A DNA stretch of 64,000 bases from Magnetococcales bacterium. GTDB taxonomy: Bacteria; Pseudomonadota; Magnetococcia; Magnetococcales; Magnetaquicoccaceae. The notes beneath the pieces were generated by a model. It was not told the DNA's origin. It saw nothing but the letters and a program-made list of their open reading frames with translations, and ran no database searches. Made by a program: the position numbers and the translations under genes. The stretch covers positions 1 to 64,000 of the forward strand of contig JADGAZ010000010.1 of assembly GCA_015231755.1 (NCBI GenBank), read 5' to 3'. Shown here in pieces: positions 34,794-60,125 of the stretch (the first letter of the stretch is position 1; each line of letters begins with the position of its first letter).

Positions 34794-34822
34794 AACAAAA
34801 TAATACTTCCTTAAGTATTATT
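34794..34822 (-). terminator. Terminator at the end of trmFO
   Basis: 10-bp stem AATAATACTT / AAGTATTATT with loop CCTT; the trmFO stop codon is inside it. Reading the minus strand, it is followed by TTGTTTTGG. Confidence 0.7.
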
Positions 34823-36121
34823 TTTCCACCCTTCCAGCGCCTCCATGGCCCGTTTGGCCATGACGGGTTTGCGGTCCACTTTGCGGCAACGTTCGGTGAG
34901 TGGGGGGAAGAGGCCGAAATTGACGTTCATGGGTTGAAAGTGAGTCGGGTCGCTTTGGGTGACGTGGTGGAGCAGGGCGCCATGGGCGGTGGTGGGGGGA
35001 GGGGGTTCGGGCAAGGTATCGTGTTGGAGCAGGTGGGCGATGAACAGGCCCGCCATGAGTCCAGAGGCGGCGGATTCCACATAGCCTTCCACGCCGGTGA
35101 TCTGGCCGGCCATGAAAAGGTTCGGGTGATTTTTCAGGCGCAGATGGGAATCCAGCACGGTCGGGCCGTTGATGTAGGTATTGCGATGGATGGCGCCGAG
35201 GCGGGCGAATTCGGCGTTTTCCAGGCCGGGGATGGTGCGGAAGATGCGTTTTTGTTCTGGCCATGTCAATTTGGTTTGGAATCCCACCAGATTCCAGAGG
35301 GTGCCCAAGTGGTTATCCTGGCGCAGTTGCACCACGGCGTGGGGGGTGGCGCCGCCCTGGTGGGGATTGTTGAGTCCGACCGGTTTCATGGGGCCGAAGC
35401 GCAGGGTTTCGGGTCCGCGTGCGGCCATCACTTCGATGGGCAGGCAGCCTTCAAAGTAGATGGGTTTCTCGAAGGGGCGGCAGGGGGTTTGGTCGGCCTG
35501 GATGAGGGCGGAGATAAATTGATTGTATTGGATTTCGTCGAGGGGGCAATTGATGTAATCCGCACCACCTTTGTCGTAGCGGGATTGGCGGAAGGCTTGG
35601 TTGAAATCGATGGATTCCAGGTGGACGATGGGGGCCAGGGAATCATAGAAGTAGAGCCGTTCCGCGCCGACGAGGGATTCCAGTTGGGTGGCCAGGGCAT
35701 CGGAGGTGAGGGGGCCGGTGGCGATCAGGGTGATTCCATCTTCGGGGATGGTGGTAATTTCTTCGCGGATCAAGGTGATGTTCGGGTGATGGGTGATGCG
35801 TTCGGTGATCCAGTTGGAGAATCCTTCCCGGTCTGTGGCCAGGGCGCCGCCTGCGGGGGTACGGTTGGCGTCGGCGGCGGCGAGGATCAAGCTGTTGAGG
35901 GTACGCATTTCCTGGTGGAGCAAGCCTACGGCGTTATGTTGCCAATCGTCGGCGCGCAGGGAGTTGGAACAGACCAATTCGGCGCAGCGATCGGTGTGGT
36001 GGGCCGGGGAGAAGCGTTGTGGGCGCATTTCGTAGAGGTGGACAGTGACGTTACGGTTGGCCAATTGCCAAGCGGCTTCGGATCCGGCCAAGCCGGCTCC
36101 AATGATACGAATCGCGTTCAC
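34811..36121 (-). CDS. trmFO: tRNA (uracil-54, C5)-methyltransferase, folate-dependent
   Basis: 436-aa FAD enzyme that makes ribothymidine-54 in tRNA using methylenetetrahydrofolate. The FAD motif [16 protein letters not shown] is at the N-terminus. The Cys-containing [11 protein letters not shown] and the late [17 protein letters not shown] are hallmarks. Many gammaproteobacteria use SAM-dependent TrmA instead, so this gene supports an alphaproteobacterial-type lineage. Its coding strand is C/A-rich, meaning the plus strand is G/T-rich, the same as in plus-strand genes lying left of family A repeats. Confidence 0.96.
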
Positions 36122-36138
36122 AGATCGAAATCCTTATC

Positions 36139-36560
36139 TGAAACTATTGAAAAAAAAAGAGAGGGTCTGGGAGATTCATCTCCCAGGGTTTTAATCTTTT
36201 AATCTTTTGACGTTGGCGCGCTTTTACGAAAGCTTTTTTCGCGTCTTTTGCGAAAAAAGCGCAGCGCGCCCTCAGCTCCACCCTGGGTACTCGTCTGATT
36301 GACCGGGCTGTTTGTTTTTTGTTCTTCCGAATCCCTGTCAAGCTCCGCACGCATGATGCAGGAGTCGTTTCCAAAAAACGGAAACGACTCCTGCGAAGGC
36401 TCACTCGTACAGGCGCGAGTGATTGGTTTGAAGCGCGCTTGCGCTTTTTTTCGCAAAAGGCGCGAAAAAAAGCTTTTTTGAAAAGCGCGCTAAAGGCAAA
36501 AAAAGTCAAAACCCTGGGAGATGAATCTCCCAGACCCTCTCTTTTTTTTAAATAGTTTCA
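36139..36560. mobile_element. MITE-like family A element with long terminal inverted repeats (about 422 bp)
   Basis: The two ends are near-perfect inverses over roughly 115 bp. Each begins TGAAACTATT, then an A-run, then GAGAGGGTCTGGGAGATTC and ATCTCCCAGGGTTTT, then a GCGCGCTTTT block and a GCTTTTTTCGC ... GCGAAAAAAGC hairpin. The centre is about 155 bp and non-coding, with a perfect 15-bp hairpin (36358-36372 with 36380-36394, loop AAAAAAC). No transposase is encoded. It lies between the start of trmFO and the end of uvrD. A clear target-site duplication is not evident. Confidence 0.8.
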
Positions 36561-36567
36561 AAGATTA

Positions 36568-38556
36568 TCAATAGAATGGACGCCTCGGGCGCGGGATGCC
36601 GACACCACGCCGCGCCGTCATCACCGTCTCACGCTTTTTCACCGTCTCCGCCGGAATCTCTTTCAAAAAACGCGACGCAATCGCCGGCTCCAACCGCTGA
36701 TACGTCCGCCGCATCCGGGCATGACTCAAAAACAACTTCTCCTTGGCGCGGGTCATCCCCACATACGTCAAACGCCGCTCCTCCTCCACCGCCGCCCCCC
36801 CCCCTTCTTCCATCGCCATCTTGTGGGGCAACAAACCTTCCTCCAAACCCACCAGGAATACCACCGGAAACTCCAACCCCTTGGCCGCATGCAAAGTCGA
36901 AATCACCACCCGACTCACCCCGTCATCCCGCCGCTCCGAACCCGGAGGATCGGATTCCAGCGAGGCCCGCTCCAAAAACCCACCCAGATCATCCACCTGC
37001 GACAAAAATACCCGCAACTCCCGCAGATTCTCACGAATATCATTGCGCCGCTCATCCAACTCCACCGCCTCCATGTAACCGGACTCGTCCAACACCTTGT
37101 CCAAAACTTCCACTGGATGAGCCACCTCCAACATCGCATGAGCCTCGTCCATCAACTGCACAAAACCCCGCAACTTGGCCAAAGCCGCCGGACCCAATCC
37201 CCCACGGGCCACCACCAGACGGGCACCATCCAACCACGATCCACCCACCTCGACCGCCGCCGCCTGAATCTCCTCCAACGCCTTGGGACCCAACTTGCGA
37301 CTCGGAACATTGATGATCCGCTCACACGCCAAATCATCCCGAAACGAATGGGCCAACCGCAAATAACACACCGCATCCTTGATTTCGGCCCGATCCATGA
37401 ACCTCAATCCGCCACTGACCCGATACGGCAAATTGAACTCATGAAAAGCCTGCTCGAACAACCGGGTCTGACTGGAAGTGCGTACCAAGACCGCCATGTC
37501 ATGCAACGGCCTCACCGCTACCTGACGCAAAATCTCCCGGGTGACATGACGGGCCTCATCCTCCCCATCCTCGGCCACATAGGTCTCCAAAAGCGCCCCT
37601 TCCGCACCCGTGGTCCACAACGTCTTGCCCTTGCGACCCTTGTTGTGATCGATCAATCCCCCGGAAGCCTTGAGAATATTCCCCGTGGAACGGTAATTCT
37701 GCTCCAGCCGGATCACCCGGGCATTGGGAAAATCATCCTCGAACTTCAAGATGTTCTCCAGCCGTGCGCCGCGCCAGCTGTAAATCAACTGATCATCATC
37801 CCCCACCACACACAACGCTCCCCCCACCGCCAAACAACGCATCCAGTCGTATTGCACCTTGTTGGCGTCTTGATACTCGTCCACCAACAAATGACGGAAA
37901 CGCTTCTGATACCCCAACAAAATCTCCGGCGCCCGATCCCAAAGCTTCAGACAGTTGGACAACAGATCCCCGAAATCCATGGCGTTCAAACGCCGCAACT
38001 CGTCTTGATAATCGTTGTAAAAGCCGCTGATGCGCATCAAATCCCGCGAGGCTTTCAACCGGGTCTCCCCCAGATCGTCCGGCCCCAATCCGTCATCCTT
38101 CCAACGACCGATGGACATGGCCAACCGCTTCGGGTTCCAATAGGGATCAAGGAAACCTTTTTGCTCGGACAGCCGTTTGATCAACCGCTGCTGCTCGCCG
38201 GAATCCAGAATGGTGAAATTGGGATCGAAACCCAATACCTCCGCATTCGCACGCAACATGCGCGCGCCCATGCCGTGAAAGGTGCCAATCCACAAACGAC
38301 GGGTACTCTCTTCATCCAGATTCAAAAGATCCGCCACCCGCTCGCGCATTTCCAAAGCGGCCTTGTTGGTGAAAGTCACCGCCAGGATCTCCCCCAAACC
38401 CGCCTCGCCTTGATGAAGCAAACGGGCCAGACGACGGGTCAAAACCCGGGTCTTTCCGGATCCCGCACCCGCCAAAACCATCAGGGCGCCTTCGGAGGCC
38501 ATCACCGCCTGCTGCTGCGGAACGTTGAGATCTGCAAGAAAATCAATGGAAGTCAC
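36568..38556 (-). CDS. uvrD: UvrD/Rep/PcrA-type DNA helicase
   Basis: 662-aa superfamily 1A helicase, somewhat shorter than the ~720 aa of Escherichia coli UvrD. Motifs seen in order: Q motif (NVPQQQAVMA), Walker A (LAGAGSGKTRVL), TFTNKAA, LVDEYQDANKVQ, VVGDDDQLIYSWRGA, LEQNYRS, and VVISTLHAAKGLEFPVVFLVG in the C-terminal part. It unwinds DNA 3' to 5' in repair or replication restart. Whether it is UvrD or Rep is uncertain from sequence alone. The coding strand is strongly G-rich next to the repeat. Confidence 0.93.
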   Translation of the reverse strand: MTSIDFLADLNVPQQQAVMASEGALMVLAGAGSGKTRVLTRRLARLLHQGEAGLGEILAVTFTNKAALEMRERVADLLNLDEESTRRLWIGTFHGMGARMLRANAEVLGFDPNFTILDSGEQQRLIKRLSEQKGFLDPYWNPKRLAMSIGRWKDDGLGPDDLGETRLKASRDLMRISGFYNDYQDELRRLNAMDFGDLLSNCLKLWDRAPEILLGYQKRFRHLLVDEYQDANKVQYDWMRCLAVGGALCVVGDDDQLIYSWRGARLENILKFEDDFPNARVIRLEQNYRSTGNILKASGGLIDHNKGRKGKTLWTTGAEGALLETYVAEDGEDEARHVTREILRQVAVRPLHDMAVLVRTSSQTRLFEQAFHEFNLPYRVSGGLRFMDRAEIKDAVCYLRLAHSFRDDLACERIINVPSRKLGPKALEEIQAAAVEVGGSWLDGARLVVARGGLGPAALAKLRGFVQLMDEAHAMLEVAHPVEVLDKVLDESGYMEAVELDERRNDIRENLRELRVFLSQVDDLGGFLERASLESDPPGSERRDDGVSRVVISTLHAAKGLEFPVVFLVGLEEGLLPHKMAMEEGGGAAVEEERRLTYVGMTRAKEKLFLSHARMRRTYQRLEPAIASRFLKEIPAETVKKRETVMTARRGVGIPRPRRPFY

Positions 38557-44294: not shown

Positions 44295-44475
44295 GGCAGG
44301 CAACCTCTCATTGGTTGAATAGGAATAATTGAACTCATCGCGGTTTTGAAAACTAAAAATATAACAAGAACCGCCTCCCTCCATACGGAATGAAGGTAAG
44401 TCAATCGCTTCCGGTTGTCAATTTTTCCAAATTTTCGATTCCCATGCCGTCATGCCGCCACCAGGCCCCTCGAAC

Positions 44476-46788
44476 CTATTTCGAGGCGAGTTCTTGAAGC
44501 CGGCTGGACATTTCCCGATTCTCCCGACCCATTTCATACAGTCGGAAAGCGTCCTTGATCCCCTGGGAAAGGGCGTCATCCTCCCAGGGCTTGGTGAGAA
44601 ATTTGTAAATCGCCCCCCGATTGACCGCGTCGATCACCGAGCTGAGTTCCGTATAACCCGACAACACGATGCGCACGGTATCGGGATGGAGTTCCTTGGT
44701 ACGGCGCAAAAATTCGGTACCCGCCATTTCTTTCATGCGCTGATCGCAAACCACCACCCCCACCGAATGTTGGGAGAGCAGATCGAATCCCTCCCGCACG
44801 CTCGACGTGGCCAGAATGCGATAGCCATCCCGCCGCAGCACCCGTTGAATGGCCTGGAGGATGCACGGTTCGTCGTCCACCACCAGCAACACCCGTTCCG
44901 GTTTGTTGCTGGTGGTGGGAGGGAGTCCGCGCCCTTCCAGCAGCAAGGCCGCGAAGTCCGTGGCCGGCAAAGGACGGCTGAACAAAAATCCCTGAATCTC
45001 CTCGCACCCCTGACGGCGCAAAAAACCCAACTGGCCTTCGTTTTCGATCCCTTCGGCGATCACCTGCAAGCCCAGACTGTGGGCCATGCCGACCATGGCG
45101 CGGGTGATGGCGGCGTCGCCGGGACTGGAGGTCAGGTTGGTGATGAAGGATTTATCAATCTTGATGCGCGCCACCGGCAGGCGTTGCAGATACGAAAGGG
45201 AGGAGTAGCCGGTACCGAAGTCGTCCAGGGCATGGGTGATCCCATCCGAATTGAGCTTGAGCATGGTACGGATCACCGCTTCGGGGTTGCGCAACACGAC
45301 CCCTTCGGTGAGTTCCAGTTCCAGCCATTCGGCGTCGAGTCCCGCCCCATCCAGGGCGCGACGCACCATGGCCTGGATATCGCCGCCGTGAAACTGACGC
45401 GCCGACAGGTTGACCGCCATGCGGATCGGGGTCAATCCCTGTTCCCGCCACTCCCGGCTCCGATGACAGGCTTCGTGCATGACCCACTCCCCCACGGCCC
45501 AGATGAGTCCCGCGTCTTCCAGCAGGGGAATGAAATCCTGGGGCGGAACCAGACCGTGTCCGGGGCGTCGCCAGCGCAGCAGGGCCTCGGCCCCCACCAC
45601 CCGACCGCTGGCCAGCTCCACCTGGGGCTGAAAATGCAGCTCGAACTCATTCCCGTCCAAAGCACGACGCAAGGCGCTGTCCAGGTCGAGACGACGCAGG
45701 GATTCCCGTTCCATTTCGGCCACAAAGAAGCCGTACATCCCACCCCCTTCCTGACTCACCGTGGTGGCGGCCACCAGGGCGTGCTGCAACAGCTCCCGTG
45801 GCGCTCCGTCCTGGGGATGAAACGCCATGCCGACAAACGGATCCAAAAACAGCTCCTGATCTTCCACCAAGATGCCCGCGGACAAGGCGCGACAAACCCG
45901 TCTGGCGGTCTGTTCGACCCTGGAGCGTTCCGGTGGAGCTTCCAGCAACAAGGCGAATTTGGACTCCTTGATCCGGGCCACGAACACCGTGGGCAAAATC
46001 GACTCCAACCGGTCGGCCACCACCCGGGCGATTTCCAGTCCCACATCCTGTCCCAGGGTCTGAAGCACCCCATGGTAGCGCCGCAGATGAATCACCAGCA
46101 CCGCGAGCATCCCACCCGGAGCGACCGTGATCTCTTCCAGACGCCCCTCGAACAATGCCCGACCCGGCAGACCGGTCTGGGCGTCGTAATGGGCCAGGTA
46201 TTGCATTTTCGACTCGGAAGCGGCGCGAATCTCCTCCAGGCGCATCACGTCCAAAGCGAACGAGAGGTCCGCCGCCACTTCCGTGAGCAGTTGAATCTCC
46301 TCGGTTTTAAAAAAATCCACTTCGGTGGCGGCCACGGTCAAGGCGCCGATGACCTCGCCTCCCTGCCGCAAGGGAAAGGCGCTGCACGCCCCGATCCCCC
46401 AGCGTTGCGCCACCTCCCGCCAAGTCACCGTAAGGGGATGGGAAAACACGTCGGCGACGATCACCGGCAAGGCGTCGTGGACCGCCTGACCCGCCGGATC
46501 CCGCCCTGACGCGCCCTCTTCGGAACAAGCCGCGAGGATGGCCAGTTCCGCCGCCGCCACCCCGGAGCTGGCCACCGGCGACAGGCTCCCCCGACCCGGT
46601 TCGATCAAGCCGATCCAGGCCAGATTGAATCCTCCCGCCTCCACGGCGATACGACAAACCGATTCATACAAGCCATCCGGATCGTCGGCCCGCACGATGG
46701 CGCGATTGACTTGGCTCAACATGGCGTAAAGGCGGTTCATCCGCTCCAGTTGATCCCGGGTGAGACCCAGATCCATGGCATCGTTCAT
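44476..46788 (-). CDS. GAF - degenerate GGDEF - EAL - REC protein
   Basis: 770 aa from the ATG that overlaps the previous stop by 4 nt. Order: GAF (about 20-190), a GGDEF-like domain without the GGDEF signature (ARIKESKFALLL at that place), an EAL domain (AEALLRWRRPG, NLSARQF, LDDFGTGYSSLSYL, AEGIENEGQ) and a C-terminal receiver (LLVVDDEPCIL, VVVCDQRM, FLTKPW). EAL metal ligands look complete, so it is probably a c-di-GMP phosphodiesterase whose activity is set by the REC domain and GAF ligand. It is the last gene of the signalling operon. Confidence 0.92.
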   Translation of the reverse strand: MNDAMDLGLTRDQLERMNRLYAMLSQVNRAIVRADDPDGLYESVCRIAVEAGGFNLAWIGLIEPGRGSLSPVASSGVAAAELAILAACSEEGASGRDPAGQAVHDALPVIVADVFSHPLTVTWREVAQRWGIGACSAFPLRQGGEVIGALTVAATEVDFFKTEEIQLLTEVAADLSFALDVMRLEEIRAASESKMQYLAHYDAQTGLPGRALFEGRLEEITVAPGGMLAVLVIHLRRYHGVLQTLGQDVGLEIARVVADRLESILPTVFVARIKESKFALLLEAPPERSRVEQTARRVCRALSAGILVEDQELFLDPFVGMAFHPQDGAPRELLQHALVAATTVSQEGGGMYGFFVAEMERESLRRLDLDSALRRALDGNEFELHFQPQVELASGRVVGAEALLRWRRPGHGLVPPQDFIPLLEDAGLIWAVGEWVMHEACHRSREWREQGLTPIRMAVNLSARQFHGGDIQAMVRRALDGAGLDAEWLELELTEGVVLRNPEAVIRTMLKLNSDGITHALDDFGTGYSSLSYLQRLPVARIKIDKSFITNLTSSPGDAAITRAMVGMAHSLGLQVIAEGIENEGQLGFLRRQGCEEIQGFLFSRPLPATDFAALLLEGRGLPPTTSNKPERVLLVVDDEPCILQAIQRVLRRDGYRILATSSVREGFDLLSQHSVGVVVCDQRMKEMAGTEFLRRTKELHPDTVRIVLSGYTELSSVIDAVNRGAIYKFLTKPWEDDALSQGIKDAFRLYEMGRENREMSSRLQELASK

Positions 46789-47165
46789 GAGGTGGCTCCC
46801 AGCAGACGGTCCAGACACCCTTTCAGTTCCCAGCGGGAGATGGGCTTGATCAGCACCTCGGAAACCCCGGCGGTGGCCAGACGGGCGCGGGAGGCGGCAT
46901 CGTTGAGGGCGGTCACCATGACAATGGGCAGACGACACGCCGCAGGATCGGCTTTCAGGCGTCGCACCACCTCGAAGCCGTCCATGCCCGGCATCATCAG
47001 GTCGAGCACGATCAGATCCGGCAACGCCTGCGCCACCGACTCCAAGGCCTCTACACCCAACGCCACGCTGCGCACCTGATGCCCTTCCGCACGCAACAGG
47101 GTTTCCATCAATTTGCGATTCCGCGCGTCGTCGTCGACAATCAGGATATGGCTGCGTGTGGTCAT
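46785..47165 (-). CDS. Single-domain response regulator
   Basis: 126 aa from MTTRSHILIVDDDARN, the ATG that overlaps the stop of the next upstream gene. The acidic pair (DDD), the phosphorylatable Asp in VLDLMMPGMDG, the Thr in VMVTALND and the Lys in LIKPI are all present, so it should accept phosphate. It has no output domain and probably relays phosphate or acts by protein contact, perhaps on the EAL-REC protein that follows with a 4-nt overlap. Confidence 0.93.
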   Translation of the reverse strand: MTTRSHILIVDDDARNRKLMETLLRAEGHQVRSVALGVEALESVAQALPDLIVLDLMMPGMDGFEVVRRLKADPAACRLPIVMVTALNDAASRARLATAGVSEVLIKPISRWELKGCLDRLLGATS

Positions 47166-47557
47166 GGACGGATTCCTTGGGATGGCGCGGATGGGGTCAG
47201 AATCTGCTTCACTATGGCGAGAAACGACCGGTATTGAATCGGTTTGGCAATGTAGCCGTCGCAACCCGCCGCCATAATCCTCTCCTCGTCACCTTTCAGT
47301 GCCAGGGCGGTCAGGGCCAGGACAGGAATCGGCCTGGTGGTCTCGTCTTGCTTCAGGATCCGGGTCAACTCCATACCATCCATGCCGGGCAACTGGATGT
47401 CCATCAGAATCAGGTCGGGATGACCGGTATGGGCGAGATCGAGAGCCTCCGGGGCGTTGAACGCCTGCAACACCGTCACCTCCAGGGTACCCAGCAACAT
47501 GACCACCAGTTTCATGTTGGCCGGATTGTCCTCCACAACCAAAACGGTCTTGTTCAT
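47162..47557 (-). CDS. Single-domain response regulator (DivK-like)
   Basis: 131 aa, MNKTVLVVEDNPANMKL. The conserved residues are present: acidic pair EDN, Asp in LMDIQLPGMDG, Thr in LALTALAL, and Lys in IAKPI. The sequence style is that of stand-alone DivK-type receivers. It starts inside the last codon of the hybrid kinase gene (4-nt overlap), so kinase and regulator are made in a linked way. Confidence 0.93.
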   Translation of the reverse strand: MNKTVLVVEDNPANMKLVVMLLGTLEVTVLQAFNAPEALDLAHTGHPDLILMDIQLPGMDGMELTRILKQDETTRPIPVLALTALALKGDEERIMAAGCDGYIAKPIQYRSFLAIVKQILTPSAPSQGIRP

Positions 47558-50500
47558 CTCGTCTCCTTTGCCTGAGTCGCCAGGGCACGGCGCACTTCGG
47601 CGACCAGATGACCGGGTTGAAAGTCGGCCTTGGCCATGATCGCCACCGCAGCGCTGTTGAGCCGTTCGTGATCCTCCCGGGTCAGTTGTTTGGCCGTCAC
47701 CACGATGATCGGAATCGCCACGGTGGCCGGATCGGCCCGCAACGCCTCCACCACGTCGAACCCGTTGACTTCGGGCATGATCAGGTCGAGCAGAATCAAA
47801 TCCGGCAAGGCGCTCCTGGCCAGCCCGATCCCCTCGGCCCCTCCGGAAGCCCGCAACACCACTTGGCCCGGAGCCGCCAAATGGGTCGCAAGCAGCTCCA
47901 CGGCCTTGGGATCATCGTCGATGATCAACACCTTGCCTTGCCGCTCCACCTCCGGACCAAACCCCAGACGATGCAGCGCGGTCGCCAGATCATCCCGTCC
48001 CACCGGCTTTTGCAACACCTGGGAGGCCCCAAGGGCAAACCCCTTGCGCGCATCCGCGACAATGGAAACAATCACCACCGGCACATCCACCCATGGAGAG
48101 TCGGGTCGCTTGAGCGCCTCCAGAAAATCCCAGCCATCCATGCCGGGCAGAAAAATATCCAGAATGATCACCGCAGGCTGAAACGATCCCACCAGCGCCA
48201 TGGCCTCCTCGGCGCTCACCACCCGCAGGGCGTGCAGACCCTCGGCTTCGAGTTGCAGCCCCACCAGTTCGGCGGCGGTGTCGTTGTCCTCGATCACCAA
48301 GGCGGTCCATCCTTCCGGCGAGGGAAGCACCGGCAGCACCGCGGACGCCATCCCACCTCCCGCCTCCCGCCACGGCAGCCAGACCGTGAAACAACTCCCC
48401 TGACCCGACTCGCTGGCCACCGCCACCGTACCCCCATGCAGCTCCACCATTTTCATCACCATCGCCAGCCCCAGCCCGGTACCCTCGTAGCGCCGTGACA
48501 AGGAAGAGTCGATCTGACTGAAAGGCTTGAACAAACGCACCGCATCGTCACGCCCGATGCCGATGCCGCTATCCTCCACCGAAATTTCCAGAAAATCGGT
48601 GAAATCGTTGGGGGGCAAAGGCCAGTGCAGGGTGTTGGAGGTGGCAGCGCTCCAGCTCTCCACCGCGGCGCGGCAGACCCGACCGGCCCGCAAGTGAATC
48701 CGCCCGCCGTCCGGGGTGAACTTCACCGCGTTGGAAAGCAGGTTGTAGACGATCTGCCTGGTCTTGCGCACATCGAGGCGCAGGGCATCCAGGTTCTCCT
48801 CCACCTCCCGGGTCAACACCAGCCGATGGGCGGTGGCCTTCTCCTTGACAATGGCCAGACTGTTTTCCAGCAGGGTATTCACAGCGATATCCTCCAGATC
48901 GAGGGTCATCCGCCCGGCCTCGACCTTGGAAAGATCCAGAATGTCGTTGATCAAGGAGAGCAGATGACGACCGCTTTCAAAGATGTCTATCACATACTCC
49001 TGCTGGGGAGGCGTGAGGGGATCCACCAGACCATCCTTCAACACCTCGGAAAACCCGATGATGGCGTTAAGGGGCGTGCGCAACTCGTGGGACATGTTGG
49101 CGAGAAATTCCGACTTGATGCGATTGGCCTGTTCCGCCTCCTTGCGCCGGGTCTGATCCCGCAGCCGGGTGATGCCATAGGCGATGTCCGCCGCCGCCTC
49201 CCCGAGCAGCTCGATTTCCGACCGGTCGAACAGGTCGTTGCGGGAGGCGTAGATGGCCACCACCCCGAAAACTCCCTCTTCGTTGCGCATGGGCAGGGCC
49301 AGAACCGTCATGGGATCCATCGGCGCGCCCGAAGCCAACAACACTCCGGCGCACCCCCTGGCCACCACCGCCTCGCCCCGCTGTACCGCCGCCGTCACCG
49401 CACACTCCCCGGAACCAGACTCCACCCAGGAAATACAAGAAGCATCGACCCCTTTGGCACCGAATCCGAAATGGGCCACGATGTGCAACTGTCTGCTCTC
49501 GTCCGAGCTGGTGAAACCGATCCACACCCGGTTGTAGCCTCCCTTTTCCACCACCAGACGACACATGTCATCGAGCAGGATGGACTCATCCGTGGCACGC
49601 AGCATGGCGCGATTGCCGGCGCTCAACACGGTCAACGCCCGGTCGGCGGCGGCCAGACGCGCCTCCCGTTCCTCCAGGCGCGCCGCCATCTCGTCGAAAC
49701 TCTGGGCCAGTTGTCCCAGCTCCTCGCCACCATGGGGCAATCCGGTGCGGGCGGTCAGATCCCCCAGACCCAAACAGCGGGCCGCCCCGATCAACGCCCG
49801 CACCTGACGCAAAATGAACCAGTCGCTGCCAAACCAGGCCAGGGTGAACATCAACACGCTCACCACCAGCATGGCCCCCAGATTGCGCCACAAGCGCCGC
49901 TCGACCGGACTGTAAAGCTCATCCCGGGGCACACCCACGCTCACATAGACGCATCGGCCCTTGCTCAGGGACAAAGGTTCCACCGCGTTCAGCCGCATCA
50001 CCCCGTCGGAGCCGGAAAACTCGGCAAAGCCTTTGCAATCCGGAGAGAGAATCGATTCCAGAAGCCCTTTTTCCGGCATCGGCTTGCCCATCGATTCCCG
50101 GTGCGGATCCGGATGACGGGCCAACACCGTCCCTTGTCCATCCACCACCACCAGCACCGTATTGGGGGAGACGGGCAGTTTCTCGGCCAGACTCTCGAAC
50201 CACGACAGGGCCAGCGGAGCGTAAACCAACCGGGACAGGCTGCCGTCGTCGTTGTAAAGCGGCAAAGCCACATTCACCACCGGCACCTTGGCCAGCAGCG
50301 CCACCCGGTAATCCCCCACCGCAAAATCCTGAGTGGACACCGCACGACGAAACCACTCCCGATCGGAAAAATTGATCGGCGACTCAAAGGGCAAAGCACT
50401 GCACAACAGATTGCCCTGAGCATCGACCACGCCGATGTTGGCGTAAAGAGGATTTTGCTGACGCAACCGCGCCAGGGTTTCGTGACACAGGGGCAACAGG

Positions 50501-50748
50501 TTGAGATCACGCACAATGGGCAAATGGGACAGAATGGTCAGCATCTGTCTGGCCTCGGCCAGAAGGCGGCCCTGCTCGTCGGCGACGAACGCGGCCAATT
50601 GCCGGGTCTGCCGTTCCGCCTGCGCCCTGGCCCGGTCCCAATCCTCCCAGGCGGAATGGACGATCAGTCCAAAGGCCGGCAGCACCGTCAACAAGACCAG
50701 CAGCAGCAACCGTCCCCGCAAACTGGGACGCAGTTCCGCCCGCCTCAT
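47554..50748 (-). CDS. Hybrid sensor histidine kinase with two receiver domains
   Basis: 1064 aa from MRRAELRPSLRG; a TTG six codons earlier is possible. The first membrane helix (LLLLVLLTVLPAFGLIV) precedes a double-Cache-like periplasmic region of ~260 residues. A second helix (MLVVSVLMFTLAWFGSDWF), HAMP, GAF (about 390-530), HisKA with phospho-accepting His in FLANMSHELRTPLNAI, HATPase (NLLSNAVKF, VEDSGIGIG, YEGTGLGLAMV) and two receivers (IILDIFLPGMDG; LILLDLIMPEVNG) follow. This is the input protein of the operon. The periplasmic ligand is unknown. Confidence 0.95.
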   Translation of the reverse strand: MRRAELRPSLRGRLLLLVLLTVLPAFGLIVHSAWEDWDRARAQAERQTRQLAAFVADEQGRLLAEARQMLTILSHLPIVRDLNLLPLCHETLARLRQQNPLYANIGVVDAQGNLLCSALPFESPINFSDREWFRRAVSTQDFAVGDYRVALLAKVPVVNVALPLYNDDGSLSRLVYAPLALSWFESLAEKLPVSPNTVLVVVDGQGTVLARHPDPHRESMGKPMPEKGLLESILSPDCKGFAEFSGSDGVMRLNAVEPLSLSKGRCVYVSVGVPRDELYSPVERRLWRNLGAMLVVSVLMFTLAWFGSDWFILRQVRALIGAARCLGLGDLTARTGLPHGGEELGQLAQSFDEMAARLEEREARLAAADRALTVLSAGNRAMLRATDESILLDDMCRLVVEKGGYNRVWIGFTSSDESRQLHIVAHFGFGAKGVDASCISWVESGSGECAVTAAVQRGEAVVARGCAGVLLASGAPMDPMTVLALPMRNEEGVFGVVAIYASRNDLFDRSEIELLGEAAADIAYGITRLRDQTRRKEAEQANRIKSEFLANMSHELRTPLNAIIGFSEVLKDGLVDPLTPPQQEYVIDIFESGRHLLSLINDILDLSKVEAGRMTLDLEDIAVNTLLENSLAIVKEKATAHRLVLTREVEENLDALRLDVRKTRQIVYNLLSNAVKFTPDGGRIHLRAGRVCRAAVESWSAATSNTLHWPLPPNDFTDFLEISVEDSGIGIGRDDAVRLFKPFSQIDSSLSRRYEGTGLGLAMVMKMVELHGGTVAVASESGQGSCFTVWLPWREAGGGMASAVLPVLPSPEGWTALVIEDNDTAAELVGLQLEAEGLHALRVVSAEEAMALVGSFQPAVIILDIFLPGMDGWDFLEALKRPDSPWVDVPVVIVSIVADARKGFALGASQVLQKPVGRDDLATALHRLGFGPEVERQGKVLIIDDDPKAVELLATHLAAPGQVVLRASGGAEGIGLARSALPDLILLDLIMPEVNGFDVVEALRADPATVAIPIIVVTAKQLTREDHERLNSAAVAIMAKADFQPGHLVAEVRRALATQAKETR

Positions 50749-51323
50749 GTCGGATCCCGGGGACAACCTTCCGGACCATGATCACCAATCGTGACGATCG
50801 AAGACTTTGATATCATATCTTCCCCCACCAAAGATATTGATGTCATATATGATTAAAATAAAAAATTATATGATATAAAATTGTTATGCACCGTACGGTC
50901 AAATATTTCCCAAAATAATGATGAATCCACATTAATACAATTCATACATTCTTTTCAAAAATCAGTCAAGGTCAAGCAAAAAATAATGATAATCTCAATC
51001 AAAATTTTCTATTTTCATCTTATGCATCAATTCAACACCAAAAAAACATATTAAAATTATTAATAACATCAAATAAAAATCTATTCTCAAAAATATCTGA
51101 TAATTTTAAATTATTTGTTTTTATATGAACAGCACAAACAAACATTTATAAATGTTATGACGAAAAAATAAAAAAAACCTCGCCACCCCACTCATGACAA
51201 GATAAAAAGAAAAAAACAAACGACCAAATCTTGACTTTTTAGTTTTTATATCGAATTGTCTATCATCAAAAGAATGACAGCAGCGAACCCGAACCTTTTC
51301 ACCAACACGCCTGGAGATGGTCG
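50749..51323. other. AT-rich divergent control region (575 bp)
   Basis: This separates the signalling operon from the divergent REC/HD-GYP-like gene. It is far richer in A and T than the rest of the window. The left part holds three related sites (50807-50878). The middle and right parts are long A/T runs with no convincing gene; a 100-codon minus-strand frame at 51121-51423 has no supporting features. Confidence 0.8.
50807..50878. promoter_or_regulatory. Three similar sites spaced about 30 bp apart (candidate operator array)
   Basis: TTGATATCATAT at 50807-50818 and TTGATGTCATAT at 50837-50848 are direct copies with one mismatch, starting 30 bp apart. An inverted copy, TTATATCATAT on the minus strand, occupies 50868-50878. 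Spacing near three helical turns puts them on one DNA face. They lie just upstream of the hybrid kinase gene. Confidence 0.45.
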
Positions 51324-52469
51324 ATGAATCCTGAAACAATGACGGAAAAAAAAGCCAGGATACTTTTTGTGGATGACGACCCGATGGTGCTGTCCAGCAT
51401 GGTTCGACTGCTGCGGCATTCATTCGAGGTGCAGACCGCCAGCGCGGTGGCGGAAGCGGTGATGGTCTTGAGAACCCAGGGACCGTTTGCCGTGGTGGTT
51501 TCCGATCTGGAAATGCCCACCATCGATGGCATTCAATTTCTCAGCCGGTTGCGTCTGGCCTATCCGGATACGGTGCGCATCATGCTGACCGGTCGCGGGG
51601 ATCTGGGGGCGGCGATGCAGGCCATCAACGAAGGACACATCTTCCGTTTTCTCACCAAGCCCTGTCCTCCGGCAGTACTCAAGACGGCCTTGTCGGACGG
51701 GGTCCGTCAATACCAACTGATCACCGCCGAACGGGAGTTGCTGGAAAAAACCGTCACCGAGGCCATCGCCCTGCTCAACGAAATTCTCGGCGTGGCCAAC
51801 TCCGCCGCCTCCGACCACGCCTATCGGGTCCGACGTCTGATGACCGGCATGGCCACCGCGTTGAACGTTCCGGATCCCTGGATCTGGCAGGCGGCAGCCT
51901 CCCTGTCCCAGTTGGGATGCATCGTCTTGGCTCCGGAGATCCTCGACAAGGTGTTTCACCGGGTGCCCCTCACCCAGGAGGAGTCCGCCCTGTACCAAAA
52001 ACATCCCCAGGTGGGGGCCAATCTGATCCGCACCGTCTCCCGTCTGGAAAGGGTGGCGGAGGTGGTCGCCCGACAAAACGAAGAAGCCGAACACTCCGAT
52101 CCCGCCCATCTGGCAGCCCGGGCTCTCAAGGCCGCCTTGGATTTCGACCTGATGCGGCTGCAATTCCGCAACGAAACCCCGGCCCGGCTGTTTGCCAAAA
52201 TGCGGGAACGCACCGGATGTTACGATCCCATCATCCTGGATCTGCTGGAACAGGTCGCCACCGCCCATCTGCAAGGGGCGCTGAAAAGCATCCCCCTGGC
52301 GGAACTGACAACCGACATGGTTTTTTTGCAGGATCTGGTCACCACCACCGGTACCCTGCTGGTACGCGAAGGGGAAGTCGTCACCCGACCCATGATGGAA
52401 CGGCTCGCCCTTTTCCAAGAAACCGTCGGAATCCGGCAACCGTTTCATGTCTTTGTGCCAACCACCTGA
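51324..52469 (+). CDS. Response regulator with degenerate HD-GYP-like output domain
   Basis: 381 aa. GGAG precedes the ATG by about 7 nt. The N-terminal receiver is intact (LFVDDDPMVL, VVSDLEMPTIDG, LTGRGD, LTKPC). The middle resembles HD-GYP: SDHAYRVRRL keeps a His, and LTQEESALYQKHPQVGANLI matches the later HP..G region. However, the place of the HD(I)GK motif reads SLSQLGCIVLAPEIL, so the metal-binding HD and GYP are lost. It is probably a c-di-GMP sensor or protein-interaction module instead of an active phosphodiesterase. It pairs with the kinase gene that follows. Confidence 0.85.
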   Translation: MNPETMTEKKARILFVDDDPMVLSSMVRLLRHSFEVQTASAVAEAVMVLRTQGPFAVVVSDLEMPTIDGIQFLSRLRLAYPDTVRIMLTGRGDLGAAMQAINEGHIFRFLTKPCPPAVLKTALSDGVRQYQLITAERELLEKTVTEAIALLNEILGVANSAASDHAYRVRRLMTGMATALNVPDPWIWQAAASLSQLGCIVLAPEILDKVFHRVPLTQEESALYQKHPQVGANLIRTVSRLERVAEVVARQNEEAEHSDPAHLAARALKAALDFDLMRLQFRNETPARLFAKMRERTGCYDPIILDLLEQVATAHLQGALKSIPLAELTTDMVFLQDLVTTTGTLLVREGEVVTRPMMERLALFQETVGIRQPFHVFVPTT

Positions 52470-52488
52470 AACCATGGGAGCCAAACAT

Positions 52489-53361
52489 ATGACCGATTCC
52501 TCCATGAACCCCCAGGAGCTGGCGCAACAACTGACCGATTGCCGTCGGCAACTGCTCCCGCTGGAAAAAATGGCCATGGTTGGTCAGTTGGCGGCAGGGA
52601 TCGCCCACGAAATCAACAATCCCGTCGGTTACATTCTGTCCAACCTCTCCAGCCTGGAAGGGTATGTGATGGATCTGTTGCGACTGGTGGCGGTTTTCCG
52701 GGAAGCCGAACCCCTCATCCTCCAGGATCCGCAACTGGCCGCCAGAATCCAATCCATGCAACAAGAAATCGAGTTGGATTATCTGATGGCAGACATCCCC
52801 AAACTCCTGGAAGAGACCGGGTACGGTCTGGAACGGGTGCGACAGATCGTCAAGGGGCTTAAAGATTTCGCCCATCAGGGCGAGGAGCAATGGGAAGAGA
52901 CCGATCTTCTGCGCTGTCTGGAAACCACCCTCACCGTGGTCTGGAACGAACTCAAATACAAAGCCGAGGTGATCCGGGAGTTTCAACCCGTACCCCGCAT
53001 TCACGCCATCTCATCCCAGTTGAATCAGGTCTTTTCCAATCTCCTGATCAACGCCGCCCACGCCATCGAGCATTCCGGGACCATCACCGTGCGGACCGGT
53101 CATGATCCCGAAAACGAATCGGTTTGGGTGGAGATCGCCGACAACGGCTCCGGCATCGCTGCGGAAAATCTGGAACGTATTTTCAACCCCTTCTTCACCA
53201 CCAAGCCGTTGGGCAAGGGGACCGGTCTGGGGTTGTCGGTAAGCAAACAGATCATCGACAAACACGGTGGCGTGTTGGAGGTGACCAGCACTCCGGAAGT
53301 CGGAACGACTTTCAGGGTCTCCATTCCACAGGCAAACAGACAAGACGGCTTTGACCATTGA
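52489..53361 (+). CDS. Soluble sensor histidine kinase
   Basis: 290 aa from the ATG with GGGAG about 8 nt upstream; an ATG inside the previous gene is less likely. The His box is in LAAGIAHEINNPVGYILSNL and the ATP-binding domain has NQVFSNLLINAAHAI, IADNGSGI and TTKPLGKGTGLGLSV. There is no membrane helix and only a short N-terminal coiled region, so its input must come from a partner, probably the preceding response regulator or the chemoreceptor/hybrid kinase. The stop TGA lies within the end of a family A repeat. Confidence 0.93.
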   Translation: MTDSSMNPQELAQQLTDCRRQLLPLEKMAMVGQLAAGIAHEINNPVGYILSNLSSLEGYVMDLLRLVAVFREAEPLILQDPQLAARIQSMQQEIELDYLMADIPKLLEETGYGLERVRQIVKGLKDFAHQGEEQWEETDLLRCLETTLTVVWNELKYKAEVIREFQPVPRIHAISSQLNQVFSNLLINAAHAIEHSGTITVRTGHDPENESVWVEIADNGSGIAAENLERIFNPFFTTKPLGKGTGLGLSVSKQIIDKHGGVLEVTSTPEVGTTFRVSIPQANRQDGFDH

Positions 53362-53451
53362 AAAACAAAGAGAGGGTCTGGGAGATTCATCTCCCAGGGT
53401 TTTGACTTTAATCCTTTAAATTTATTATTTTTTTAAAGATTAAAGTCACGG
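53353..53451 (+). repeat. Family A repeat, left arm with an internal AT-rich stem
   Basis: The end CATTGAAAAA contains the stop codon of the kinase gene. GAGAGGGTCTGGGAGATTC and its inverse half follow. GACTTTAATC then pairs with GATTAAAGTC about 25 bp on, closing an AT-rich stem. The expected right arm is absent and is replaced by the hairpin at 53471-53491. Confidence 0.8.
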
Positions 53452-53470
53452 GGCGCTGCCTAAGCCCCCG

Positions 53471-53491
53471 CCAGGGCGGTAACCGCCCTGG
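53471..53491. terminator. Family B hairpin
   Basis: 9-bp stem CCAGGGCGG / CCGCCCTGG with loop TAA, followed by ACCCG. It has the same design as the hairpin at 11177-11199 and sits 12 nt before the stop of the convergent ETF-QO gene. Confidence 0.55.
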
Positions 53492-53502
53492 ACCCGTGAT
53501 GG

Positions 53503-55119
53503 TCACAGACTGCCAAAATCCGGTCCACCTCCTCCCTCGGGGGGGGTCCAACGAATGTTATCCAATGGATCCTTGATGTCGCAGCACTTGCAGTGCAAAC
53601 AGTTGGCCCCGTGGATGCGGTAGGTCGCTGCGTTCACCACGGGTGGAATTTTGAGTTCATACACCCCGGCTGGACAAAAACGGGTCTCGGGATTGGCAAA
53701 ACGGGTCCGTCCCGCCTCCAAAGGAAGCCGTGAATCCCGCAAACGCAAATGCAACGGTTGATCGTCTCGTTGGGTCAAGGCACTCAAGGCCAAAGCCGCG
53801 GGACGGTCCAGAATCCAGGGGGCCGGTTGGGGAGGCGGGGGAAAAGCCACCCAAGCAGCGCCCACCGGTCGCAAGCGCTCCCGATCCGCCAGCTTCCAAC
53901 GCCAGGTCCAAGGCGAACGACCCCGACTCGCCCACTCCCACACCGCATGGACCAAACCCGGCACCAACCCCGCACGAAATCCGGGCCGCACATTGCGTAC
54001 CGCCTTCAAATCGGCAAACCAGGCCGACCCGTAGACCCGTTCCGGATAAGCCCGCAATCCATGGGTGGAGCAATCTCCACTCCCGAAAGCCTCCCCCACG
54101 GCATCCGCCGCCGCCAATCCGGATTGAATGGCATTGCCAATCCCCTTGAGTCGGGCGGCGTTCAAAAATCCCGCCCCGTCCCCCACCAGCATCCCACCAT
54201 CGAAAACCAATCGGGGCAGACTCTGCCATCCCCCTTCCACCAGGGTTTTGGCGCCAAAAGCCAACGGTCGCCCCGGTTCCAGCAACGCCCGGATACGCGG
54301 ATGATTCTTCCAATGCTGAAACGCGATGAAGGGATCCAATCCCCCATCCCGATAATCCAAACCCGCCACCCAACCCACGGCAAGCCGGTCCGAAGCCACA
54401 GCATACACAAATCCCCCCCCGTATTGATCCGGTTTCAGGGGCCATCCCAAGGTGTGGAAAATCCCGCCAGGCTGAACGGCAGAACCGGCGGGAAGCTCCC
54501 ACAACTCCTTGAAACCCAAACCATAGGTCTGAGGGGTACGGCCCTGGTCCAGATGAAGCCGTTCGATCGCCTCCCGGGTCAGATGTCCCCGACACCCCTC
54601 GGCCAACAGCGTCACCGGAGCGCGCAAGGCGATGCCGGGCTGAAATCCGGGTTTCGGCGTTCCGTCGGCTCCGCGTCCGTGATCCCCGGTGATCACGCCG
54701 GTCAGTCGATCCCGCTCCCACAGCAGACCGGCGGCGACAAATCCGGGATAGATCTCCACCCCGGCCGCCTCCACCCGTCCCGCCAGCCAGCGACACCACC
54801 CCCCCAAAGAGAGCAGATGGCAACCCTCATGATTCCAAAGCTGGGGCAGGGGCAAAGCATGCCGACGGGACAAAAACAACAAAGATTGGCGCGTCACCAC
54901 CGGACCCGAAGGGGCATCGTCACCGGCTGCCAGGGCATGCAGATCGGCTGGATCCACCAAAGCGCCGGAAAGCAAATGGCCACCAATCCGGGCCGCCTTT
55001 TCCAGCACGACGATTTTCAACGTCGGAAAACGATTGGCCAGTCGCCACGCCGCCGACAATCCCGCCGGACCGGCTCCCACGATGATGACATCAAATCGAA
55101 GATCTGACATGAGGTTCAT
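53503..55119 (-). CDS. Electron-transfer flavoprotein-ubiquinone oxidoreductase
   Basis: 538-aa membrane-associated FAD/4Fe-4S enzyme that passes electrons from ETF to the quinone pool. The FAD site (VIIVGAGPAGLSAAWRLA) is N-terminal, GFKELWELP and GMLVGDGAGFLNAARLKGIG are family hallmarks, and the C-terminal ferredoxin-like part has Cys in RFCPAGVYE and NCLHCKCCD. The four-Cys set for the cluster is present. No etfA or etfB is in the window. The ATG is 3 nt from a family A repeat and has no ribosome-binding site; a second ATG three codons in is equally possible. Confidence 0.93.
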   Translation of the reverse strand: MNLMSDLRFDVIIVGAGPAGLSAAWRLANRFPTLKIVVLEKAARIGGHLLSGALVDPADLHALAAGDDAPSGPVVTRQSLLFLSRRHALPLPQLWNHEGCHLLSLGGWCRWLAGRVEAAGVEIYPGFVAAGLLWERDRLTGVITGDHGRGADGTPKPGFQPGIALRAPVTLLAEGCRGHLTREAIERLHLDQGRTPQTYGLGFKELWELPAGSAVQPGGIFHTLGWPLKPDQYGGGFVYAVASDRLAVGWVAGLDYRDGGLDPFIAFQHWKNHPRIRALLEPGRPLAFGAKTLVEGGWQSLPRLVFDGGMLVGDGAGFLNAARLKGIGNAIQSGLAAADAVGEAFGSGDCSTHGLRAYPERVYGSAWFADLKAVRNVRPGFRAGLVPGLVHAVWEWASRGRSPWTWRWKLADRERLRPVGAAWVAFPPPPQPAPWILDRPAALALSALTQRDDQPLHLRLRDSRLPLEAGRTRFANPETRFCPAGVYELKIPPVVNAATYRIHGANCLHCKCCDIKDPLDNIRWTPPEGGGGPDFGSL

Positions 55120-55121
55120 GA

Positions 55122-55262
55122 ATTGAAAACAAAGAGAGGGTCTGGGAGATTCATCTCCCAGGGTTTTGACTTTGAAAAAAGAAAAAAATTATTGATTTCA
55201 AAAATAAAAGACAAAAAAGTCCTGGGGGAGGAATCCCCCAGACCCTCTCTTTTTTTTCAATG
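55122..55262. repeat. Family A repeat, inverted pair (141 bp)
   Basis: The left arm is ATTGAAAACAAAGAGAGGG plus the CTGGGAGAT/ATCTCCCAG core. The right arm is CTGGGGGA...TCCCCCAG, then ACCCTCTC, a T-run and CAAT. About 45 bp of A/T-rich DNA separates them. It fills the gap between ETF-QO and the PII-like gene, both on the minus strand. Confidence 0.85.
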
Positions 55263-58863: not shown

Positions 58864-59057
58864 TTGAAACCATTAAAAAAAAAGAGCGGGTCTGGGAGAT
58901 TCCTCTCCCAGGGTTTTATCCTTTGACTTTGCTTTTGCCTTCAAGCGCGCTTTACAAACAAGCTTTTTTCGCGCCGTTTGCGAAAAAAGCGCAGCGCGCA
59001 GCCTTGGCGAGTCTCGTGTTTCGCTTTTTGAAACACGAGACTCGCGCATTGCCAACA
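58864..59057 (+). repeat. Family A repeat, long left arm with hairpin
   Basis: TTGAAACCATT, an A-run, the CTGGGAGAT-TC-CTCTCCCAG core (one mismatch), the GCGCGCTTT block, GCTTTTTTCGC and GCGAAAAAAGCGC, then a 16-bp perfect hairpin (59007-59022 with 59030-59045, loop GCTTTTT). The order matches the left half of the element at 36139. The hairpin stem sequence differs from that copy but is still perfectly paired. Confidence 0.8.
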
Positions 59058-59120
59058 GACATGAAACCCACGCCTCGTCAACAAGCCTGATGGGGCATCA
59101 CGAATCACCACCCTGCTTCC

Positions 59121-59978
59121 TCACCCCCGCAACGACCCCACCCCCCGCTGTTCTTTCAGCCCTTTCCGGACCGCATCCACGGGCATGGTCTGACCGGTCC
59201 AGATCTCGAACGCCTTGGCGCCTTGGTGGATGAGCATGCCGAGACCATTTTCGATCTTCAATCCCCGGGCGCGGGCGGCGGAAAGCAAAGGGGTCACGGG
59301 TGGGGAATAAACGATGTCGTAGACCAAGGCGGAAGGGGGCAACAAGGTCAGATCCGGGACCGCTTCGGTGGCGTTGTCCATGCCCAGGCTGGTGGTATTG
59401 ATCACCAGTTGGCAGGCAGGCAGGGTGTGGGTCCAGGGGATGGGAGTGATCAAACGGTCGGGGAAAAACCGGGAAAATTCCTCGGCCAGGGCGACGGCCC
59501 GTTCGTGGGTGCGGTTCATCAACCCAACCGATCCGGCCCCCTCTTGCAACAAAGCCGCCAGCACGCCGCGCGCCGCTCCTCCGGCCCCGAGCACAAGGAT
59601 TTCGATGTCACGCAAAAAACCGCCCCAAACCTCCCGCAAATCGGTGATGAAGCCATAGCCGTCGGTGTTGTAGCCGATCAATCGGCCATCGGGCTGGATG
59701 ACGACGGTATTGACCGCGCCGATCATGCGGGCCATGGGATCGAGTGCGTCCATGAGGGGGACGAGGTTTTCCTTGTGGGGAATGGTGGCGTTGAAGCCGA
59801 CGACGCCCTGAGCGCGCAGATCCCGTACCGCCTCGGTGAGATTTTCCGCCCGCACGTGAAAAAAATCATAGCGACAATGGGTCATGCCCCGTTCGGCATA
59901 AGCCAGATTGTGCATGAAGGGGGAAAGGGAGTGGTGGATCGGGTCGCCGATCACGCCGAAACGTTGGAGGGTATTCAT
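59121..59978 (-). CDS. aroE: Shikimate dehydrogenase
   Basis: 285-aa NADP enzyme of aromatic amino acid synthesis. The ATG giving MNTLQRFGVIGDPIHHSLSP has GGAG 5 nt upstream; a longer frame would be read from the neighbouring repeat. Catalytic Lys is in NATIPHKENL, Asp in NTDGYGF, and the nucleotide loop is GAGGAARGVLAAL. It is flanked by family A arms that point away from each other, an arrangement like a small composite element. Confidence 0.95.
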   Translation of the reverse strand: MNTLQRFGVIGDPIHHSLSPFMHNLAYAERGMTHCRYDFFHVRAENLTEAVRDLRAQGVVGFNATIPHKENLVPLMDALDPMARMIGAVNTVVIQPDGRLIGYNTDGYGFITDLREVWGGFLRDIEILVLGAGGAARGVLAALLQEGAGSVGLMNRTHERAVALAEEFSRFFPDRLITPIPWTHTLPACQLVINTTSLGMDNATEAVPDLTLLPPSALVYDIVYSPPVTPLLSAARARGLKIENGLGMLIHQGAKAFEIWTGQTMPVDAVRKGLKEQRGVGSLRG

Positions 59979-60000
59979 GCAGGCTCCATGAAATTTTTGA

Positions 60001-60125
60001 AACCGGGCGCGCTGCGCTTTTTTCGCGAAAATGTGAAAAAATATTGTGAAAGCGCGCAAAGGCGAAAGTCAAAAGATTAAAACCCTGGGGGAGGAATCCC
60101 CCAGACCCTCTCTTTTTTTTTAATA
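60001..60125 (-). repeat. Family A repeat, long right arm
   Basis: The inverse of the 58864 arm: GCGCGCTGCGCTTTTTTCGCG, an AT-rich stretch, GCGCGC, GTCAAAAGATTAAAACC, the CTGGGGGA/TCCCCCAG core, ACCCTCTC and a T-run. Parts of it are in frame with aroE and would add 27 codons if translated. It ends 9 nt before the stop of the Nif3-like gene. Confidence 0.8.

Follow-up and report, generated by a model that had tools for sequence, protein, structure and literature searches.

What kind of element occupies the junction between a uvrD/pcrA-type helicase gene and trmFO in this Magnetococcales genome, and for what are its palindromic ends kept? The junction holds a non-coding inverted-repeat unit of 422 bp, located at 36139-36560 of the window (the whole stretch of 64,000 nucleotides that was analysed), which a preliminary description had presented as a MITE-like mobile unit and as the full form from which single arms may derive. 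The reading that we favour, and which on the sequence evidence we hold to be somewhat probable, is that of a REPIN-like head-to-head pair of palindromes, provided with an extra shell and a centre, whose arms are selected as class I DNA triplex hairpins.

Layout of the unit

The limits of the unit coincide with the ends of its inverted repeats. The main inverted arms (36151-36200/36500-36549) extend over 50 nt with 94% complementarity, the inner ones (36234-36258/36446-36470) over 25 nt with 96%, and the outer ends (36139-36157/36542-36560) over 19 nt with 95%, which bears out the earlier claim of inverted repeats exceeding 100 bp with a three-part order mirrored around a non-coding centre. This order comprises a core hairpin, a GCGCGCTTTT block and a T6/A6 hairpin, and the two cores are in addition direct repeats of each other. 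The predicted RNA fold of the unit amounts to -230 kcal/mol, where 100 shuffled sequences give -118 ± 6 kcal/mol (z = -18.9), and the predicted DNA fold yields a z of -21.9. At the gathering threshold, tRNA was the only match in an Rfam scan of the window. The closest matches to the flanking TrmFO are found in the Magnetococcales MAG isolates nW5bin1 (95%) and nW5bin3 (87%).

Table 1. Features of the unit and of its flanking genes, in window coordinates.
Feature	Position	Strand	Basis
trmFO, flanking gene	34811..36121	-	NCBIfam TrmFO equivalog, 673 bits
Whole unit, long form	36139..36560		Inverted repeats, arm profile, folding z
Left arm: ACTATTGA9 - GAGAGGGTC - hairpin - GGGTTTTAATCTTTT	36142..36201	+	Arm profile and conservation profile of 125 arms
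Left arm, putative third (reverse-Hoogsteen) strand AGAGGG	36160..36165	+	Covariation and class I motif scan
Left arm, hairpin purine strand GGGAGA	36169..36174	+	Covariation and class I motif scan
Left arm, hairpin pyrimidine strand TCTCCC (loop TTCA, 36175-36178)	36179..36184	+	Covariation and motif scan
Second shell, left: GCGCGCTTTT...GCGAAAAAAGCGCAGCGCGC hairpin	36216..36269		Inverted repeats; module recurs in other long units
Central 15-bp perfect hairpin, present also in orthologous G010 unit	36358..36394		Inverted-repeat search, junction comparison
Second shell, right, inverse orientation	36433..36490		Inverted repeats; module recurs in other long units
Right arm, order as in left arm but opposite strand	36500..36557	-	Inverted repeats, arm profile
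Right arm, pyrimidine strand TCTCCC	36516..36521	-	Class I motif scan
Right arm, purine strand GGGAGA	36526..36531	-	Class I motif scan
Right arm, putative third strand AGAGGG	36535..36540	-	Class I motif 36516-36540, minus strand
uvrD/pcrA-type helicase gene, flanking	36568..38556	-	Pfam UvrD; under NCBIfam equivalog cut-offs

A dispersed family of paired and single arms

The core of the unit is found, with up to 3 mismatches, at 10 places in the window where 0.01 are expected, and with up to 2 mismatches at 59 places in the genome as compared to 1 for a reversed-pattern control; a search of the same genome with the unit returned 120 alignments, both strands counted. Matches to the family are present in 25 of the 41 genomes searched (the own genome and 40 relatives), including all 11 of the genus; none was found in plasmids or phages, nor did one 32-nt pattern have an exact match in viral contigs. 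From a profile search of the own genome, covering the window and 39 further stretches nearly all chosen for carrying the repeat, we obtained 88 arm hits that resolve into 57 units, namely 31 head-to-head pairs and 26 single arms. Most pairs (22/31) measure 121-184 bp; 4/31, the unit under study included, fall at 377-517 bp, and the remaining ones are three minimal palindromes of 56-60 bp and two pairs that enclose a gene. The 422-bp form is thus not the basic unit. It is a short pair in whose interior a second shell, likewise inverted, and a centre of unique sequence are placed: the other long units inspected carry a similar second shell inside their arms (GCGCGCTTTT...GCGAAAAAAGCGC...GCGCGC), and some of their centres contain a third hairpin of varying sequence.

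The sequence common to 125 profiled arms is AAACYATTGAAAAAAAAGAGRGGGTC-TGGGRGATTCNTCYCCCA-GGGTTTTGACTTT, with conservation beginning at about AAACYATTG and falling to background level within a few bases outside. As compared by region in 39 pairs, the two arms within a unit vary independently, none being more alike than arms taken across units, which indicates that the arm is the module; selection on the large stem, or copying from arm to arm, would have coupled the two. By single column, coupling between arms is seen at -1, 17 and 51 with p 0.03-0.05 among 78. Most of the 20 copies fetched from the relative G003 (L252-L271) are hybrids, with a left arm of A8/GAGGGGGTC and a right arm of GGGGTCCAGGGG hairpins. 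Several of these hybrids have further outer sequence with GAGGCTGTTTGGTG, which in L252 is inverted on the other side. Separately, at 58872-60124 of the window and at 2077-3013 of L141, two half-units with the second shell are in each case placed around one gene in a cassette-like manner.

With respect to genes, 27 of 55 units are located between tandem genes, 19 between convergent and 2 between divergent ones, with 4 in predicted ORFs and 3 at stretch edges, as compared to 19/11/8 background junctions that are tandem, convergent and divergent, and a stop codon lies within 30 nt in 32 of the 48 units having a predicted gene on both sides. Such a distribution is what bidirectional transcription terminators at gene ends would display, the palindrome then serving the RNA, and the GC-rich stem with an outer A8/T8 goes in the same direction, as do 8 terminator-like sites in 36000-36700 (1.5 in shuffles), some of which are outside the unit. 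We nevertheless consider this explanation improbable: 8 nt separate the arm hairpin from the long T run, two relatives have the flanking genes of our unit 14-15 nt apart without any unit, and the third-strand covariation described below would be useless in RNA, where, according to the accessible part of PMC4666352, purine-motif triplexes do not form.

A putative third strand that covaries with the hairpin

Each arm follows the order third strand, linker, purine strand, loop and pyrimidine strand (AGAGGG-TCT-GGGAGA-TTCA-TCTCCC at 36139-36560), and both arms of the unit have 6/6 triads with a linker of 3 and a loop of 4, within the ITxF definition of a potential intrastrand triplex, which comprises stems of 6-15 nt and loops of 1-6 nt (PMC4666352). 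The same report assigns the order third strand, purine, pyrimidine to class I and the order pyrimidine, purine, third strand to class II (PMC4666352), and by these classes the arms are, as judged from sequence, class I potential intrastrand triplexes. In the contiguous stretch C10:1-83000 we counted 12 perfect class I motifs, all in units (one palindrome being counted on both strands), and no perfect class II motif, with averages of 0.10 and 0.05, respectively, in 20 shuffles. Arm-type hairpins in units, taken on both strands (n=36), split into 19 with 5-6 of 6 triads and 17 with three or fewer, as expected if the third strand is on one strand only; of the four purine hairpins outside units, one reaches 5 of 6 triads, its tracts being arranged as in class II. 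A G-quadruplex within a single arm was discarded on reading the sequence, as only three G tracts are found on the strand.

Conserved folds in RNA are classically recognised by covariation, which we have analysed here for three strands of DNA. From 212 anchored arms, 118 of them distinct by genome and 107 of these with the stem in register, a set of 75 distinct arms was derived. The hairpin itself covaries, with pair 27-36 being GC in 79 and AT in 47 of 127 cases and pair 28-35 GC in 113 and AT in 11. The 5' flank changes along with the stem: stems with A-G go with GAGAG (36), GAGCG (9) or GAGGG (1), and those with G-A go with GAAGG in 11/11 cases, the flanks of G-G stems being looser (GAGGG 25, GAGAG 14, GCGGG 12, GAAGG 11). 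Arms with A at position 26 have T, C or A at position 18. In terms of APC-corrected mutual information (75 arms), the top dozen pairs include the hairpin pairs 27-36, 26-37 and 28-35, the mirror pairs 17/27, 18/26 and 16/28 and their parallel counterparts 17/36 and 18/37, the rest being adjacent or loop columns (31-32, 42-43, 40-41, 30-32). The mutual information of mirror pairs 17/27, 18/26 and 16/28 amounts to 0.44, 0.26 and 0.20, values matched in none of 2000 permutations, and that of five out of six off-register controls does not exceed 0.062 (p≥0.077); one off-register pair, 16/27, is also significant (0.14, p 0.0005). The sixth triad (15/29) is nearly invariant and gives no signal (mutual information 0.05, p 0.11). 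In a set thinned to about 27 dissimilar arms, the values for 17/27 and 16/28 still exceed those of shuffles and that for 18/26 becomes marginal; under progressive thinning 17/27 holds throughout, and 16/28 and 18/26 weaken as the set shrinks. Out of 225 triads, 162 are G.G-C, 24 A.A-T and 2 T.A-T, the exceptions being 18 A.G-C, 5 C.A-T, 2 G.A-T and 12 with an imperfect stem pair. By these measures the putative third strand and the hairpin change together, position by position in mirror order, under purine-motif rules (G.G-C, A or T.A-T) that allow some exceptions. To lie antiparallel in a purine-motif triplex, a third strand has to match G to G-C, and A or T to A-T, in mirror register, and neither ordinary base pairing nor arm-to-arm copying would give such a match. 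We regard this as the most telling feature of the arms; the preliminary description does not mention it.

A diverged family is found in G028, a genome of another GTDB family (loci L272-L301), where it gives at least 40 matches; it differs in its linkers, and its third strand extends over 8 nt. We have analysed 31 of 34 arms (three weak hits were dropped), 22 of them distinct, scoring the third strand against the purine strand. At triads 1-7, G stands opposite G, and T or A opposite A, in 30/31 arms, one arm being out of rule, and triad 8 presents four C.A. Stems of type GGGGGGAA have T opposite the seventh position (16 arms), those of type GGGGAGGA have T (4) or A (3) opposite the fifth, and those of type GGGGGGGA have G throughout triads 1-7 (7 arms). 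The two variable triads give Fisher p values of 5.9e-6 and 4.7e-5, with off-register combinations at 0.022 or weaker. On these counts the mirror rule recurs, at other triads, in the diverged family. Shared descent nevertheless inflates the covariation, since arm types are few (in the own family, which has only 6 triads, three main ones; in G028 five, besides a single odd arm) and a relationship between the two families is probable; we would guess that the independent coordinated changes number under ten.

The mirror repeat AGAGGG-TCT-GGGAGA might also be kept for H-DNA, that is, for a triplex arising from duplex DNA and not from a single strand, although we regard this as hardly probable. Mirror arms of 6 bp are short for H-DNA, and a pyrimidine tract on the same strand would not be needed for it, yet all three tracts covary. 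In its favour, identical mirror symmetry is what H-DNA requires by definition (PMC4666352).

Probable gain and decay at orthologous junctions

The unit is not common to all relatives at this place. In the congeneric genomes G001 and G002 the uvrD-trmFO junction has no unit and measures 14-15 nt, and it is likewise unit-free in five further genomes of the order, the aligned protein ends being 9 (G018), 51 (G020), 81 (G032), 145 (G038) and 151 nt (G027) apart. G010 has the same unit, G003 and G008 have related units of other sequence, and G028 has a large unit from another family. This pattern of presence and absence suggests that the unit was probably gained within the genus and that the junction was probably hit separately elsewhere. 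The comparison of orthologous junctions proposed in the preliminary description thus delivers unit-free junctions, where an identical unit in every related genome would have refuted its claim; G001 and G002 are too diverged to give the exact insertion ends. G010 is of no more help for these ends, as its first site retains part of an arm, its second is not clean and its third is a stub. At this last place, corresponding to the window unit 55122-55261, G010 has only ATTGAAAGAAAATTTTTTCAAT, that is, the ends minus the interior. The palindromes of 56-60 bp may stem from deletion between the two cores of a pair, which are at the same time direct repeats.

These observations bear on the claim of a MITE-like unit, of which one part holds: the element is repeated, has two inverted ends and looks inserted. 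In the strict sense it would be a true MITE, i.e. a non-autonomous relic of a DNA transposon with terminal inverted repeats of about 55 bp mobilised by a DDE transposase in trans, and this we deem very improbable. Sharp outer ends, inverted termini, scattered, non-coding copies and orthologous junctions that lack them are as in bacterial MITEs. However, target-site duplications of 2, 3, 4, 5, 8 or 9 nt do not rise above shuffles at any boundary offset from -6 to +7 in 39 pairs, the arms of one unit are no more alike than those of different units, and no transposase is seen between arms, nor was a cognate one found in a genome search that covered Y1_Tnp. Long-spaced pairs were considered as candidates for enclosing one and were rejected, the interiors of the two gene-bracketing pairs being aroE (window) and a trmL-like methyltransferase gene (L141).

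Search for a mobiliser

Y1_Tnp is the transposase family that was searched genome-wide, and no transposase linked to the arms was found. The own genome has two Y1_Tnp genes (G000:C2:5144-5467 and C40:3544-3864), the first of which scores 65 bits with the NCBIfam model of REP-associated tyrosine transposases, below its 80-bit cut-off; no arms are found in the stretches holding these two genes, nor at any of 29 fetched Y1_Tnp loci of relatives (54 hits listed). Copy number does not follow the presence of such genes either: many arms are present in G005, where no Y1_Tnp was found (76% complete), and G001 has two Y1_Tnp genes and two matches. For the mobiliser, the foremost candidate is a RAYT-like HUH enzyme that would act in trans.

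Such an enzyme is central to another explanation, according to which the units are ordinary REPINs or BIMEs, i.e. REP doublets with plain hairpins spread by a RAYT, the match between flank and stem being an accident of few inherited arm types. The family does resemble REPINs and REP doublets in its inverted doublets of short palindromes and many singlets, mainly intergenic, mainly behind genes and near stops (PMC3116915, PMC3733652), and one of the two Y1_Tnp genes is RAYT-like, although below cut-off. We consider this explanation unlikely, if worth retaining. The hairpin foot has neither a GTAG nor a CGTC tag (the foot sequences are GGGTC and GGGTTTT), no linked RAYT was found at the Y1_Tnp loci inspected and a putative 5' third strand is added, which sets the family apart from REPINs as they appear in the available parts of Bertels & Rainey 2011 (PMC3116915) and Di Nocera et al. 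2013 (PMC3733652). The dissociation of arms from Y1_Tnp genes, in location and in copy number, also speaks against it, and descent alone leaves the mirror rule at other triads of the diverged family unaccounted for.

Rearrangements against a near relative

We have mapped C10:1-20000 and 24001-83000 on the near relative G006, and the intervening part on fetched G006 stretches, taking as junctions those places where neighbouring blocks map to different positions in G006, or to positions far apart, and where one end or both lie inside a contig; 39039/42291, with both ends at contig ends, and three collinear insertions were left out. Seven junctions result (16332/16516, 24138/24962, 32613/32654, 33773/34821, 36316/36529, 70187/70304 and 74174/74283). 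At five of them, 36139-36560 among these, a unit of the own genome is located between the block ends, and at the remaining two it is G006 that has a unit where the block ends (in C93 at about 7.6 kb, in C63 at about 12.2 kb). As 12 gaps hold a unit, the probability of finding one at 5 or more of 7 junctions amounts to 0.0024 if all 60 gene gaps are taken and to 0.020 if they are restricted to the 39 that reach 30 bp, corresponding to a modest enrichment of units at breakpoints. In G006, no unit is seen at the join of the trmFO block with the block from 24962 (C31:19917-20046). G006 trmFO retains its half of the unit along with some of the centre, to which a half resembling the own-genome unit at C15:26.6 kb is attached, the join being, by reading, in unique sequence. 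Since G010 keeps the order uvrD-unit-trmFO, the order found here is probably older than that of G006. The close relatives are draft MAGs, and junctions at repeats could be misassemblies; the G006 trmFO join alone is visibly within unique centre.

The single arm 32614 is at a rearrangement junction and the single arm 53361 at the edge of an insertion, placed as broken halves would be. The earlier idea that single arms may derive from a mobile unit agrees with this placement. The latter arm (53361-53410) is near the right edge of a window segment of about 9.2 kb (44342-53513) that G006 lacks, although its flanks are collinear there (C100).

Comparison with TM_ECO and proposed mechanism

The closest parallel that we have found is TM_ECO, or BoxC, a class II intergenic element that forms five inverted pairs in E. 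coli K-12 and is associated with variable loci (Holder et al. 2015, PMC4666352). According to the accessible portion of that report, its triplex is stable in vitro, in vivo DMS footprinting was negative, earlier work cited there had found no promoter or terminator activity, and partial deletions of pairs leave hairpins. The Magnetococcales family shares with BoxC/PIT/TM_ECO the potential for a purine-motif intrastrand triplex, the intergenic location, many copies, some of them inverted pairs of two types, and the instability of the loci; to the hairpins left there by partial deletion correspond the minimal palindromes and the stub seen here (PMC4666352). Unlike BoxC/TM_ECO, it follows the class I order, and its arms sit in longer REPIN-like units with further shells (PMC4666352). 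Stems also differ, with 6 triads in the own family, 8 in G028 and 9 nt in TM_ECO (PMC4666352), and covariation is found here and was not met for TM_ECO in the parts of the report available (PMC4666352). The TM_ECO pattern CCCTCNCCC-N3-6-GGGNGAGGG-N3-GGGNGAGGG (class II) has no exact match in the window. As sequence and strand order differ, the unit is not TM_ECO, despite the close resemblance in layout and instability.

Under the reading that we favour, with arms selected as class I triplex hairpins, an arm would fold into its hairpin whenever its strand becomes single, as in replication, excision or repair, and the 5' flank would be locked in the major groove. The triplex fold might then be what selection, or an enzyme spreading the repeats, recognises. 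Obstruction of DNA synthesis by the triplex, along with a cruciform of the whole unit, could bring about deletions within the unit, as well as breaks whose ends are rejoined with those of other copies. A bolder proposition is that intrastrand DNA triplexes are real and selected in bacterial chromosomes, as shown by three-strand compensatory evolution, and that, in Magnetococcales, a mobile REPIN-like palindrome has a class I triplex hairpin as its functional end, which a single-strand DNA enzyme would read or which would block replication, and which would drive chromosome reshuffling; this we put forward as a tentative idea, plausible in our view but which we stop short of endorsing.

Covariation of a third DNA strand in two diverged families would make the folding of potential intrastrand triplexes in bacterial cells testable wherever copies suffice and, if true, would provide a structural reason for the inverted-pair layout and for the instability of such loci; the G028 family is good material for biophysics. 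A literature search found nothing on Magnetococcales MITEs, nor on triplex covariation in bacterial palindromic repeats, and we make no wider claim; on intergenic palindromes of Magnetococcales, nothing apparently relevant was found in the accessible portions of the sources.

Other repeats

In G004, G005, G008 and G009, many of the listed matches to the family are within about 150 bp of a contig start, and these repeats probably fragment Magnetococcales MAGs. The contig of the window itself starts with a repeat of 54-58 bp (1-55) that is found again close to where five or more G006 contigs begin and is another repeat family or the end of an element. Finally, three similar 63-nt segments at 46965-47027, 47363-47425 and 47749-47811 of the window are, by their look, receiver-domain parts of neighbouring regulator genes.
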